A stretch of 36,857 nt of DNA from positions 115,973 to 152,829 of the forward strand of contig JAWXAT010000003.1 in assembly GCA_034439615.1 (NCBI GenBank). Reading direction: 5' to 3'. Position numbers and translations under genes: made by a program. Source of the stretch: Oligoflexia bacterium (GTDB lineage Bacteria > Bdellovibrionota > Bdellovibrionia > JABDDW01). A model generated the notes under the pieces. That model saw only the letters and a program-made list of their open reading frames with translations, was not told the origin of the DNA and ran no database searches. Positions 16,962 through 22,028 of the stretch are shown here, piece by piece. How positions within the stretch are numbered: position 1 is the stretch's first letter; each line of letters opens with the position of its first letter.

Positions 16962-16969
16962 ACAAGAGA

Positions 16970-16997
16970 AGTATAAAAACTTAAGAGATTTGGTCAA
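16970..16997 (-). promoter_or_regulatory. Sigma-70 promoter predicted to give a leaderless xdhC-mocA mRNA
   Basis: On the minus strand TTGACC (complement of 16992-16997) and TATACT (complement of 16970-16975) are 16 nt apart, and the ATG at 16961 comes 8 nt after the -10. There is no ribosome binding site. The promoter sits in the short gap after the exported-protein operon, separating control of xdhC-mocA from it. Confidence 0.65.
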
Positions 16998-17012
16998 TTT
17001 TTATTAAAATAA

Positions 17013-17816
17013 TTAATTATTTGTCCAGGGCCAGCCCTTACGCGCCTTAAGATGCATTAATAATTGTGGGCCAAAATATACCGTGCTGTATTGAATCCAG
17101 TTTTGATAAAATTCAAAAAATCTTGGAGGATCAACTCGTTTGGGATTTTGCCTATTCAACGGGGCAAAATATTGTACTTCCCAGAGGTCTTGGTGCTTAC
17201 GAATGGCTAGTATGTCCATTTTCCCACTACTTCCGTGACCTTGATAGTAAGCCGTATACTGTCTGAAAACTTTATGTGAATCGCGGTAGTCGATAATATT
17301 AATTTTAGAATCGCCAAATTTAAATTCAGCCCTACAATTATCGGTTGAGTTATTAAATGAAATGCTAAATGGAAAATTGTTAAAGCGAAGTATGTATTCT
17401 TGAGCTGAGGTGGGATTTGGAAATTTGAAGTTTAATAGATCTTCATTGGGAGTAGGTTCAAGGCTACGCCCAGTAATGCTACCATTTCGCTGAATAGTGA
17501 TTACCTCAGTTTTATCGTTATTAGATAATGTAATGATTTCCTCAATGGAGTTCTCTGAAATCACTCTGGTAATTTTTTGTGAAAATATAATGCGCACAGG
17601 ATGTGATTTTGAGCCAAATGAACGCTCACTCCTATCTTGGTTGATTGAAAGTAATGGAAACTGGAGTTCAACTTTCTGGATATACTGAGAAAAGGTGCGT
17701 ATGAACGTTTGAAAAATAACTTCGGGTGATAATAATTTTTCTGAGATCTGCGCCATGCCCACTTTAGGTGATAAAAATATCATGAAACAGAAAATAGCTT
17801 TCATGAAGGTTTTCAT
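17013..17816 (-). CDS. Exported protein of unknown function (third gene of exported operon)
   Basis: I do not recognise this 267-residue protein. It opens with a signal peptide (MKTFMKAIFCFMIFLSP, ending near GMAQ at about 24). The mature part looks mostly beta-stranded, with alternating segments such as SHPVRIIFSQKITRVI and EYILRFNNFPFSISF, and has one cysteine (NCRAEF). The C-terminal third is rich in aromatic residues (RFFEFYQNWIQYSTVYFGPQ). Its start overlaps the stop of the 344-residue gene upstream by ATGA, so the two are coupled and their products probably work together in the periplasm or outer membrane. Confidence 0.75.
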   Translation of the reverse strand: MKTFMKAIFCFMIFLSPKVGMAQISEKLLSPEVIFQTFIRTFSQYIQKVELQFPLLSINQDRSERSFGSKSHPVRIIFSQKITRVISENSIEEIITLSNNDKTEVITIQRNGSITGRSLEPTPNEDLLNFKFPNPTSAQEYILRFNNFPFSISFNNSTDNCRAEFKFGDSKINIIDYRDSHKVFRQYTAYYQGHGSSGKMDILAIRKHQDLWEVQYFAPLNRQNPKRVDPPRFFEFYQNWIQYSTVYFGPQLLMHLKARKGWPWTNN

Positions 17817-18847
17817 TTTTGCTTTCCCCGTCGATCATCAATGACTAAATCACCATTTTTAATTGCAGAAATTATATCTCGAATAATTGTCTTTACCTGT
17901 TGAATGGGTCCATTTGTGTTAAGTATGAATTGCACAAGTGTTAGTTCTTCAAAGAATTTTGATGTCTGCTCTCCACTGCTAATTAATTCAGTGGCAGGAA
18001 AATCTTTAAGCAATAGATTGATAATTGAATTCATTGAACCTATCACTGCTGTAATAACTGGTCCGTTAGCAGCATTTTGAAATGCTTCAAGTGAAGTTTC
18101 ACTGACGGGGCCGATTGAATATATAATTCTGCCAGTAGGCAATGCCAGCGCTCTTAAATTTCTTGTTCCTTGGCTAAAATGCGCTTCTCTTTCAAATTCA
18201 TTACCTAGAAAGTGAAAATCAATGTCAATGTGTTCTGGTAGCTCATATGACAGCACCGAGGCTTCAATACCTGGTGACTCGATCATTGTTAAGGCTAATT
18301 TATCTTTAAGATAAAATCGTGTAATCACACGCTCACCAGTGCGAAGAGTGTCAAATTTCATAACTGAAAATTTTTTAATTCTATCATTCACAATGTAACT
18401 AATTGTACGACGTGTTTCGTTGAGGCTCAGTTCAAATTCACGTTTACCTTTAAGTACCAAACTCCAACTAGGTGTAAGGCTGATACCTTCAGTAACTATG
18501 TTTTCACTAAAAGTAATCTTCCCGCGACAACCAACGTAATCAACTTGTTCTATGAGCCCTGTTTTTGTTGGTGAATAAGTGTACTGAATGGCAGCTAGTG
18601 GTTTTTTGGGTTGCACTTCGTCGCCCGAATTACAGGCGACTTCATTGTTTGAGGAGAACTCAACACGGTTATCGACAACTTTGGCGATATAGTTATTTGA
18701 AAGGTCTTGCACTTTTTGAGAGAGGATATCGCGAAATAATGTACTAAGTGTTTTCACGGTGAATACTACGGGCATAGGAACATTTTGAGCAAAGACCTGA
18801 GATGAAAATGCTGTGAGAGTAAAAATTAAAAACCATTTCATTTTCAA
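17813..18847 (-). CDS. Exported protein of unknown function (second gene of exported operon)
   Basis: I do not recognise this 344-residue protein. It has a clear signal peptide (MKMKWFLIFTLTAFSSQVFA, cleavage after about residue 20). Two cysteines (in EVACNSG and YVGCRGK) may form a disulfide. The middle, about 90-240, is predicted beta-rich (ITFSENIVTEGISL, REFELSLNETRRTISYIVND, RVITRFYLKDKLALTMI). The last ~90 residues are helical, ending in a basic RRGKQK. It begins 8 nt after the 490-residue gene and overlaps the 267-residue gene, forming a three-gene operon. It may share a general fold plan with the 267-residue product, but no sequence similarity is evident by eye. Confidence 0.75.
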   Translation of the reverse strand: MKMKWFLIFTLTAFSSQVFAQNVPMPVVFTVKTLSTLFRDILSQKVQDLSNNYIAKVVDNRVEFSSNNEVACNSGDEVQPKKPLAAIQYTYSPTKTGLIEQVDYVGCRGKITFSENIVTEGISLTPSWSLVLKGKREFELSLNETRRTISYIVNDRIKKFSVMKFDTLRTGERVITRFYLKDKLALTMIESPGIEASVLSYELPEHIDIDFHFLGNEFEREAHFSQGTRNLRALALPTGRIIYSIGPVSETSLEAFQNAANGPVITAVIGSMNSIINLLLKDFPATELISSGEQTSKFFEELTLVQFILNTNGPIQQVKTIIRDIISAIKNGDLVIDDRRGKQK

Positions 18848-18855
18848 ATACTCAC

Positions 18856-20328
18856 TTAATTTGGGTTGGTCGAATTAACACAAGCGGGTTTATCGCTAGG
18901 TATTAGACCTTTACGTGTGAGTAAATTATTTTGCGTGTTATAGTTTAAATTGATTTTACGCTTAGCTTGAATAAAATTTCCGTCATGCATGTTTGCAGAT
19001 TCTAGCGTTACTTGAAATTCAACTATTGGTTTATCTTTTATTTTTTGCGGCAGAGTTTTAAATAAAAAACCACCATTGAGCATAAGATTTTCGACTTGTC
19101 TTTGCCCTTGTTGTTTAAACCCACTGGAACTTTCAATGGTGATATTCACATATTGTTGATAAGTATTAAGTGTCGCAAGGTTCGGATTTAGTTTAAAGCC
19201 AAGTACAGGTACTCCATTGGGTGTTCGTAGATAATAGGGTTCAAGACTGTTGAGCACTTCATCTAAATTACCTTGGTGGCATAGATTGCGTTTATAATCA
19301 TCAGTGAATGTTGCGCGCGATTGGTTTGTGTCATCAGTAGCGAGTTGTTCAATATACTGCATCCAGGGCATAGCATTGGCTCGTATTGTAACGAGAAGTT
19401 TTTTACGTACCATTTCTTTATTTTTACCAAAAATGAACAAGCCGGTCGTTTTTTTAGTGGCTACTTCAGCTGAGTCTGCACTGACAATGTAGTATGTAAC
19501 GCCCGTTGGTAAATCTATTTGGGGGGAAGACACTTGAAGTAGAATGATATTTTCAGAATTTTTAAAATCTTTAACGCCGTAATTAATATTTAAATTTTTG
19601 ATACGAATTAAATCCTGTTGTTCGTGTGACACACTCACTTCGCCACGAACATCAATGCCTAGATTATTTGTTTTTATTTCACTCACATTGGGAAAACTAG
19701 TGTGATGGGGTGATGTATGTGCAAAATGAAAACTTTCGAGATTTGGTACTGGTATGCGAATTGTATTTTTAAATTCAATTTCGCGAGAGGTTCGCAGTGC
19801 AAGTAATGATGCTGACACCTTTGAGGTCTTTAAAAGCATTAAACTATCTTTAAGTGAAACTTTAGATTTTCCATTTCCTGATGAATTAATGCCTAGCGAA
19901 GCTTCAAATTCAGAAATACCTTCATCAGTGGCTTCGAATACCTCGATGATGATTGGTACTACAACTGGCGGAATGAAATGTTCAAAACGATCAGCTTCTT
20001 TAATAAAAAACTTCATACGTGCTAGTGTTGTTTCGTCGTGATGCCAATAAGAAATATAACCTGCGTTGGGAACAGAAAGATGATCCCCATTGATGTTTCC
20101 GTTTAGGGGAATTCCTCCAAAAATTTCATCGCGCATACGAGAGATGATTGCAGTAGCGCTAGAATTTTGTACGAGATAAGTGCAAGTTTTTAAAGTTTCA
20201 TTACAAACTGGTTCACCAGGGTTACGCTCAATATGTACGGGTTGAGGTTCTTGATCTGCATAAATTATGGTGGGTTGTGTGATGCTAAAAACCAACGCAA
20301 AAAATATATTAAGGTATGCTGCCGACAT
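18856..20328 (-). CDS. Exported protein, possibly secretin-like (first gene of exported operon)
   Basis: The 490-residue protein has a signal peptide ending near IIYAD (residue 25) and GGAG 5-8 nt before the ATG. Residues about 88-150 (GYISYWHHDETTLARMKFFI, then VPIIIEVFEATDEGISEFEA) resemble the secretin pattern in which a ring-building repeat leads to a strand with E-V and then S-x-x-x-G. The following SLKDSLMLLKTSKVSASLLA and NLGIDVRGEVSVSHEQQDLI could be the start of a degenerate secretin beta-domain. This is a by-eye resemblance without a diagnostic motif. Four cysteines lie in the mature protein, near both ends. About 160 C-terminal residues match nothing I know. It heads an operon with two other exported unknown proteins. 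Confidence 0.6.
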   Translation of the reverse strand: MSAAYLNIFFALVFSITQPTIIYADQEPQPVHIERNPGEPVCNETLKTCTYLVQNSSATAIISRMRDEIFGGIPLNGNINGDHLSVPNAGYISYWHHDETTLARMKFFIKEADRFEHFIPPVVVPIIIEVFEATDEGISEFEASLGINSSGNGKSKVSLKDSLMLLKTSKVSASLLALRTSREIEFKNTIRIPVPNLESFHFAHTSPHHTSFPNVSEIKTNNLGIDVRGEVSVSHEQQDLIRIKNLNINYGVKDFKNSENIILLQVSSPQIDLPTGVTYYIVSADSAEVATKKTTGLFIFGKNKEMVRKKLLVTIRANAMPWMQYIEQLATDDTNQSRATFTDDYKRNLCHQGNLDEVLNSLEPYYLRTPNGVPVLGFKLNPNLATLNTYQQYVNITIESSSGFKQQGQRQVENLMLNGGFLFKTLPQKIKDKPIVEFQVTLESANMHDGNFIQAKRKINLNYNTQNNLLTRKGLIPSDKPACVNSTNPN

Positions 20329-20388
20329 GGAAACTCCTTCAATTGTTATGAAGGGCGAACCTACCGCATCGCAATATACTAAGCTAGA

Positions 20389-21672
20389 TTATTTAGACTC
20401 GTAGCGACATTTTCCTTGAATATATGTGGCTCTTACCGTGGGTTCTCCACCCAAGAATAAGAGTGCCGATAATAGATCATCAGGGGAGTCGCATTGTTTT
20501 ACGCGATCAGCAACAAGGCTACGGCCTTTTAAATCATGAACCACAAAATCGGCTATGTAATTTTTTTCAAAAACACCTAAGCGATCTCCATCCCCTAAGG
20601 CAAGTGCACCAGCTCGTGTTGCCAAATAAAGTAGTTCACTTGGCTTCATGAAATATTTTTGTAGGGCCTGAGCTTCGTAGCAACATCGAGCCGTACTATG
20701 CATTGAGAGATCCCAACCCCCGCCCACATCAGAACCCAGGGCAATTGATAAGCCTTGATTGCGCATTTTCTGATACGGAAACAATCCACTTCCTAAAAAG
20801 AAATTACTACTCGGGCAGTGTACTAAATGACTCTTTTGTCGTTTTAAAATATTCACTTCTTCGTTTTTTAAATAAATGCAATGACCCAAAAGACTTTTGT
20901 CATCGATTAATCCATGTTGCGCGTATACATCAGTATAGTTTTTAGATTTTGGAAACAGATCTGCAACCCATTTTATTTCTTCAGGTGTTTCTCCTAAATG
21001 AGTTTGTACCAAAAGGTGAGGGTGTTCTTTGCGAAGCTGACTTACACCTTCTAAAAGCTCATTCGTAGATGTGGGTGCAAAGCGAACAGTGATGGCGGGT
21101 TTTACACGCTCAGTTTTTTTCCACTTTTTAATTAGACCTTCAAGTTCAATGAGTGCTTCATCGGCGGGTTGCAAAAGATTTTCAGGGGCATTGCGATCCA
21201 TGAGAACTTTTCCTACATGGGCTCTCAGGCCTGATTTCTCAGCTACTTCCATGAGTTTTAATGTCGCGGGTGTATGTGATGTTGCATAAATGGCAGCGTA
21301 AGTGGTGCCGCAACTCAGTAGCCCGTTACAAAACTCTTTCCACCTTTTAGTGGCGTAAGTGGCGTTCGCATATTTTGCTTCTACTGGAAAAGTATGATTG
21401 TTAAGCCATTCTAAAAGACTGTATCCGGCCGAGGCCATCATCTCCATTTGTGGTGCATGCACATGACAATCGATAAAGCCCGGAGTGATGACAGAGTGAG
21501 GACCATGATCAAATACTTTAGCCTTGGGATATAATTTTCTAAGTGTGGTGAAGGGGCCGAAATCTAATATTTCGCCTTCATCGTCGATAGCGAGTGCTCC
21601 TTTTTCAAAATACCTGAGCATATCAGGTGAAGGAGCATCAAAGAGCCACTGCGCTCTGTGGAGAACGATCAT
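20389..21672 (-). CDS. guaD: Guanine deaminase
   Basis: This 427-residue amidohydrolase is guanine deaminase, which turns guanine into xanthine. Visible features are PGFIDCHVHAPQ with zinc ligands His70 and His72, QTHLGE with His225 and Glu228, GHC with His264, the family-specific CPSSNFFLGSGLFPY, and ALGSDVGGG with Asp315. The APQ after the HxH and the SNFFLGSG stretch separate guanine deaminases from related TrzA/AtzB enzymes. Its start overlaps the preceding small exported-protein gene by ATGA. Xanthine made here is the expected substrate of the molybdoenzyme encoded at 11566-15163. Confidence 0.93.
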   Translation of the reverse strand: MIVLHRAQWLFDAPSPDMLRYFEKGALAIDDEGEILDFGPFTTLRKLYPKAKVFDHGPHSVITPGFIDCHVHAPQMEMMASAGYSLLEWLNNHTFPVEAKYANATYATKRWKEFCNGLLSCGTTYAAIYATSHTPATLKLMEVAEKSGLRAHVGKVLMDRNAPENLLQPADEALIELEGLIKKWKKTERVKPAITVRFAPTSTNELLEGVSQLRKEHPHLLVQTHLGETPEEIKWVADLFPKSKNYTDVYAQHGLIDDKSLLGHCIYLKNEEVNILKRQKSHLVHCPSSNFFLGSGLFPYQKMRNQGLSIALGSDVGGGWDLSMHSTARCCYEAQALQKYFMKPSELLYLATRAGALALGDGDRLGVFEKNYIADFVVHDLKGRSLVADRVKQCDSPDDLLSALLFLGGEPTVRATYIQGKCRYESK

Positions 21673-22028
21673 CTCAGGTAATAAATTTCCACAGTTTGTA
21701 GTAAACTTTCAACGCCGTTGTCTTTACCAAATATAAATATATCAAGTTTTTTAACGGGTTGTTCAGTAGGCATCTGAGGAGCGGTATAACATGGTACTAA
21801 GAAATTATAAGTGCAGCTACCAGCACCATCGCAAAGTAATTTCAGCGCTTTAATTTTTGTTGGAAGTTTACAGGTGAGGCCAAATTTTTCAGCAGTTGCA
21901 TTTACAGAGGCAAGCATCACCGTATCTGCGATGATGCGCTTGAACTGGGGATCTTCTTCGGTGGCAGATGCTGTATTAAAAGCAACTACTGTTAACAAGA
22001 GAGCGAAGATAAAAATAACTTTGTTCAT
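21669..22028 (-). CDS. Small exported protein of unknown function
   Basis: A 119-residue protein with a clear signal peptide (MNKVIFIFALLLTVVAFNTASA, cleaved after about residue 22). The mature part has four cysteines (LTCKL, LLCDG, SCTYN, PCYTA), suggesting two disulfides, and a C-terminal beta-looking stretch (KLDIFIFGKDNGVESLLQTVEIYYLR). No family is recognised. It is translationally coupled to guaD and follows ada on the same strand, so it belongs to the purine gene run, but a link to purine metabolism is not shown by sequence. GGGGGA before the ATG serves as ribosome binding site. Confidence 0.7.
   Translation of the reverse strand: MNKVIFIFALLLTVVAFNTASATEEDPQFKRIIADTVMLASVNATAEKFGLTCKLPTKIKALKLLCDGAGSCTYNFLVPCYTAPQMPTEQPVKKLDIFIFGKDNGVESLLQTVEIYYLR

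Follow-up and report, generated by a model that had tools for sequence, protein, structure and literature searches.

Secretins are known to serve type II and type III secretion, type IV and Tad pili and filamentous phages, driven by an inner-membrane machine (PMC7545093, PMC6668835). GspD of type II secretion, PilQ of the type IVa pilus, RcpA/CpaC of Tad and SctC/InvG of type III secretion all carry a signal peptide and a ring-building N-domain followed by the secretin domain. The phage protein pIV is a small secretin outside a large secretion system, comprising N3 and the secretin domain together with an N0 whose residues contact the inner-membrane partners pI/pXI (PMC8563730). Pilotins, TsaP and BfpG, and DotC/DotD for DotH, exemplify exported proteins that serve a particular ring component of the outer membrane (PMC2951367). 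Here we describe a three-gene locus, hereafter the trio, from an Oligoflexia bacterium (assembly GCA_034439615.1, contig JAWXAT010000003.1, positions 115,973 to 152,829), located within a stretch of 36,857 nucleotides that was analysed as a whole and is referred to as the window. The gene 1 family is homologous to secretins, and the three genes truly belong together. Gene 1 shares the signal peptide, N-domain and secretin domain order of the GspD, PilQ, RcpA/CpaC and SctC/InvG proteins, and like pIV is small and stands outside a large secretion system. Unlike the former, it lacks N0, has one N-domain with a cysteine pair in it, an extra C-terminal β region and eroded end motifs, and genes for an inner-membrane platform, ATPase or pilins are absent nearby. 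Unlike pIV, it has no N0 and the trio has no adjacent phage genes. We consider it probable that the trio encodes a stand-alone outer-membrane secretin channel without N0, equipped with two dedicated exported partners. Judged by the family libraries and open-licence papers searched, this combination has not been described before, and no earlier report of an orphan secretin was found in that literature.

Homology to secretins emerges from profile comparison. Secretins collected with PF00263 from 13 genomes provided a reference alignment of 31 sequences, against which a profile of 13 gene 1 relatives reached 83% in hhalign with signal peptides included, and 94.7% (E 6.4e-8, 269 columns, running from the N-domain to the barrel) with signal peptides removed. 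The core score of 63.9 compares with a maximum of 24.0 in 200 column or block permutations, and a 43-member gene 1 profile scored 64.4 against a maximum of 24.3 in 120 permutations. Genes 2 and 3 gave background scores only against the secretin profile. When subsets were compared separately, the match was strongest for Bdellovibrionia members (91.7%) and weaker for four members of families f15 and f26 (58%) and for Bacteriovoracaceae on their own (34%, E 4e-4); match strength thus varies with the sequence mix. PilQ scored highest among the per-type secretin profiles (59.8%). A template-free AlphaFold2 model of gene 1 comprises an N-domain followed by the strand-helix-strand order of the secretin domain. 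When this model was compared with the PDB by Foldseek, all 33 matches at E < 1e-3 were secretins, GspD, PilQ, InvG and BfpB among them, with 5w68 the best (2e-9).

The domain architecture of gene 1 can be followed in both model and alignment (Table 1). A β-α-β-β-α arrangement at residues 48–112 precedes strand E122–134 in the AlphaFold2 model, and the hhalign match takes in this N-domain. Conservation across 43 members is almost complete for the cysteine pair (C42 and C49, 98% each) and complete for Y51 and D113 (100%). In the family alignments, too few residues precede the N-domain to accommodate N0. The secretin domain, at about 195 residues, has the usual length, keeps its strand order and contains two conserved glycines (G224, 95%; G229, 86%). 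The C-terminal β-rich region spans some 115 residues and is apparently missing from the three shortest members, of which two (L018 and L052) are complete short proteins ending before it and the third (L053) is truncated where its contig stops. An earlier reading of the window from sequence only had suspected that the first protein was secretin-like, with a ring-building repeat and following E-V strand at residues 88–150, a degraded secretin β-domain and a further C-terminal part. It had named a profile match to a secretin N-domain or secretin, and structure prediction, as ways to check this. The profile match and the predicted secretin-type fold bear out the proposal. An N-domain does precede the secretin domain, but it begins earlier than was thought, at about residue 41.

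Table 1. Features of the trio and its junctions, in window coordinates
Feature	Position	Strand	Description and basis
Gene 1, divergent secretin	18856..20328	-	490 residues, ATG start, AAGGAG upstream; hhalign, AlphaFold2, Foldseek
Gene 1 residues 41-113, ring-building N3-like domain	19990..20208	-	β-α-β-β-α in model; conservation
Gene 1 residues 121-317, secretin domain	19378..19968	-	hhalign columns; strands from E122-134 through E299-317 in model
Gene 1 residues 360-475, extra C-terminal β-rich region	18904..19251	-	model, length distribution, alignment
Gene 2, exported partner (putative)	17813..18847	-	344 residues; start TTG 18847 or ATG 18841
Gene 3, exported gene 2 paralogue	17013..17816	-	267 residues, without C-terminal helical tail
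Upstream junction	20329..20388	-	guaD stop (20389-20391) to gene 1 start; AAGGAG before ATG; one cassette edge
Downstream junction	16962..17012	-	gene 3 stop to homologous xdhC start (ATG ~16961); other cassette edge

Several observations weigh against gene 1 being a secretin that forms a pore. No family library, Pfam or other, calls it a secretin: a Pfam search with genes 1–3 matched nothing, PF00263, with a cut-off as loose as E = 1, found nothing in individual members or at the trio in three genomes (G000, G001 and G010), the family has no significant PHROG match, and the gene 1 profile matched nothing among PDB sequences. A first column-shuffle null gave spurious scores of up to 135 on 7–15 columns, although these short matches were gone when the null was repeated with both sides limited to well-filled columns. 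The gene 1 model is of modest confidence (predicted local distance difference test, pLDDT, 61.6; predicted template modelling score, pTM, 0.43), with global template modelling scores of 0.2–0.3, and so supports the topology and not the geometry. The silence of the libraries towards single gene 1 sequences would be expected if the likeness were accidental and gene 1 were an unrelated β-rich fold, which we regard as highly improbable given that two methods, comparison of profiles and prediction of structure, concur at levels well beyond those of the controls. The G-G and P-x-L-G-x-I-P-x-L-G end motifs are eroded in most members, while a few, L032 among them, keep partial versions at most, and oligomerisation, location and transport are predictions drawn from the fold. 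This erosion of canonical barrel and amphipathic-lip motifs, together with low model confidence for the gate region and last strands and high sequence turnover in the family, could signify that the secretin domain is no longer a pore and that gene 1, together with genes 2 and 3, builds or anchors a scaffold ring in the periplasm or in association with the outer membrane. We think such a loss quite unlikely, as the domain retains its length, strand order and glycines and the alignment reaches its end. On its predicted fold, gene 1 would form an outer-membrane pore.

The trio is conserved as a unit across Bdellovibrionota. At the usual cut-offs, the gene 1 sequence by itself brought up no relatives, either in 60 genomes or in a genome-contig collection. 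Relatives were first found among weak matches (E up to 0.1) of a class-wide search and were verified by gene order; the weak matches L008 and L009 were followed by gene 2-like open reading frames, in regions that also hold gene 3. Iterative profiles extended the family, with 3 sequences yielding 7 more loci, 10 yielding 3 more, and the resulting 13 serving for the phylum search. L056 and the YidC-like protein L055, both weak matches obtained later, proved false. At E < 1e-10 the 13-member profile picks up gene 1 in 49 of the 369 Bdellovibrionota genomes, and 46 of these 49 were also recovered when the phylum was searched independently with gene 2. Gene 2 adjoins gene 1 in 48 of the 49 (G288 and G292 added by direct reading), the exception being G044, where the contig breaks off. 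In each of the 42 loci examined in full, of which the window is one, the genes lie on one strand in the order 1-2-3, a constancy that argues against a chance grouping. Among these, one gene 3 (L130) reaches the contig end, and in about eight the third gene was at first identified solely from where it lies and how long it is. Thirteen further loci, which did not enter the enlarged profiles, all match the gene 3 profile at E < 1e-13. Four trio loci were assigned to Bacteriovoracaceae, Bacteriovoracia or Bacteriovoracales, and family f12 was identified thereby. The genomes listed for genus g10, along with many species of the class, gave no gene 1 match.

The trio of the window lies among purine genes, with guaD and add upstream and xdhC and a mobA-like gene downstream, and a purine-related role was rejected because neighbours differ at other trio loci. 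No pilus or secretion genes were seen in the flanks examined, no phage genes were apparent there, no viral contigs carried relatives of close group A10, and plasmids likewise gave none. The sequence-only reading had likewise described three adjacent signal-peptide genes with an 8-nucleotide gap, an ATGA overlap and no other secretion genes adjacent, and had proposed a survey of their order across the phylum. Its description of the layout and of the neighbourhood stands, and the order is kept throughout the 42 loci. The ATG of gene 3 does overlap the TGA stop of gene 2, and ATG 18841 is as likely a start for gene 2 as TTG 18847, in which case the gap between genes 1 and 2 is 14 rather than 8 nucleotides. 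In three species of genus g11 (L035, L053 and L054) the trio stands beside the same dipeptide-transport ATPase gene with metG near, a shared neighbourhood from which vertical inheritance follows there. Several Bacteriovoracaceae (L115, L116, L122, L129 and L142–L144) have the trio near thyA/folA-like genes and some near TPM-domain-like exported genes, these names being given by eye. Two genomes placed in different genera, g82 and g115 (G181 and G268, loci L133 and L135), score identically against the profiles of genes 1, 2 and 3; they may represent one species.

Comparison with a sister genus (genome G001) captures the insertion site. In G001 the xdhC start codon falls among the final codons of guaD, and add and the mobA-like gene are arranged as in the window; the trio of the window sits between guaD and xdhC, where this overlap is uninterrupted in the sister. 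Reciprocally, G001 has its own, distantly related trio between acs and an outer-membrane-protein-like gene (named by eye), and these two genes are adjacent without a trio in the genome of the window. Each site alone may instead reflect loss in the sister. In the gene 1 tree and the gene 2 tree alike, the window copy falls among Bacteriovoracaceae, and the G001 copy groups with families f15 and f26 at 100/100. Long branches render exact placement uncertain, but the evidence from the two reciprocal uninterrupted sites is independent of the trees. The cassette moves horizontally between lineages and its insertion is cassette-like. Its G+C content is 0.37, slightly lower than the 0.398 of the window, and a search of the insertion for bordering repeats and for a mobile element gave imperfect 22-mers only, with nothing convincing. 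A promoter-like TTGACC-16-TATACT (16997–16970) lies just upstream of the xdhC ATG at ~16961 and is perhaps a replacement promoter acquired after insertion. The xdhC frame is listed from TTG 16997, and its G001 relative starts at the residue matching ATG ~16961.

Genes 2 and 3 are paralogous. With signal peptides removed their profiles match at 97.3% in hhalign (E 2e-11), with a core score of 73.9 compared with a maximum of 21.2 in permutations. A hydrophobic, signal-peptide-like N-terminal stretch is present in 42 of 43 gene 1, 39 of 42 gene 2 and 41 of 42 gene 3 family members, and an internal membrane helix in none of the same 43, 42 and 42. The AlphaFold2 model of gene 2 (pLDDT 72) consists of a helix, a long antiparallel β-meander and C-terminal helices. 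Conserved residues include C72, C107, E115, P284 (100%), D338 and R340 (93% each), with Pro284 and the D-x-R near the end held by the helical tail that is extra relative to gene 3. A Foldseek search with this model gave no significant PDB or viral structure match, which adds to the points against our interpretation of the trio. A LolA-like fold, considered from secondary structure, was unsupported by Foldseek, and likeness to a YD/MORN-type meander was weak and not significant. Pilotins, TsaP and BfpG provide a possible analogy for genes 2 and 3, as do DotC/DotD. Genes 2 and 3 differ from these proteins in being paralogues of one another and mostly not lipoproteins, a lipobox-like motif occurring in 2 of 42 gene 2 and 0 of 42 gene 3 members. 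Neither matched pilotin, TsaP or BfpG families in Pfam, and gene 2 had no such match among PDB sequences or in Foldseek. A Dot/Icm-like DotC/DotD/DotH trio was considered and no family match supports it.

Divergence of both paralogues is fast, the window copies of gene 2 and gene 3 being 15–30% and 10–21% identical to their relatives. As exported, paralogous and fast-evolving products of a horizontally moving cassette, genes 2 and 3 might instead be cargo, secreted or surface-displayed proteins leaving via the gene 1 channel in a minimal self-secretion or surface-antigen cassette. This seems unlikely, as gene 2 is found wherever gene 1 is and has strongly conserved residues, which fits a structural partner better than variable cargo. 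Binding of genes 2 and 3 to gene 1 is suggested by their strict linkage, and a partner role for both is what we propose.

Our results are compatible with a model in which the gene 1 product is exported by Sec and assembles, via a single N3-type ring-building domain and the secretin domain, into a gated outer-membrane ring. The gene 2 and gene 3 proteins would act as dedicated periplasmic partners, either as a hetero-oligomeric collar or assembly factor or as a periplasmic part of the channel. A Sec-exported substrate moved across the outer membrane would be the simplest guess for cargo. The passage of the trio between lineages as one cassette implies that it probably needs nothing encoded beside it. 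Four canonical secretins are encoded at other loci in the genome of the window (L013–L016), one GspD-type, one PilQ-type and two short proteins beside CpaF- or CpaE-like genes (Tad type). Gene 1, assisted by two accessory proteins, could supplement or replace the secretin of a type IV pilus, Tad or type II machine whose genes lie elsewhere in this genome, and both the frequent co-option of secretins across systems (PMC6668835) and the first rank of PilQ among the per-type profiles would suit such a role. However, the resident systems own their secretins, relatives without the trio (G002 and G003) carry about equal numbers, gene 1 lacks N0, and the trios examined have no pilus or secretion genes beside them; we hold a borrowed machine to be improbable. 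The missing N0, the lack of a neighbouring machine and the presence of canonical secretins elsewhere in the host together favour the stand-alone channel. A bolder and more tentative proposal, possible though somewhat doubtful, is that the trio constitutes a complete minimal system for outer-membrane translocation, distinct in type and spreading among Bdellovibrionota, in which the two periplasmic paralogues and an N0-less secretin jointly gate and load the channel without an inner-membrane motor.

A phylum-wide, N0-less family with two exported paralogues and no adjacent machine would allow one to test whether a secretin can work alone. The trio also offers a way into the exported proteins that are annotated as 'hypothetical' in a phylum with predatory members, and indicates that Pfam-style annotation undercounts secretins. 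Elsewhere in the window, a small exported cysteine-containing protein is encoded between add and guaD (21669–22028), and a similar small exported open reading frame occupies the same place in G001 (L154, ~1375–1720).
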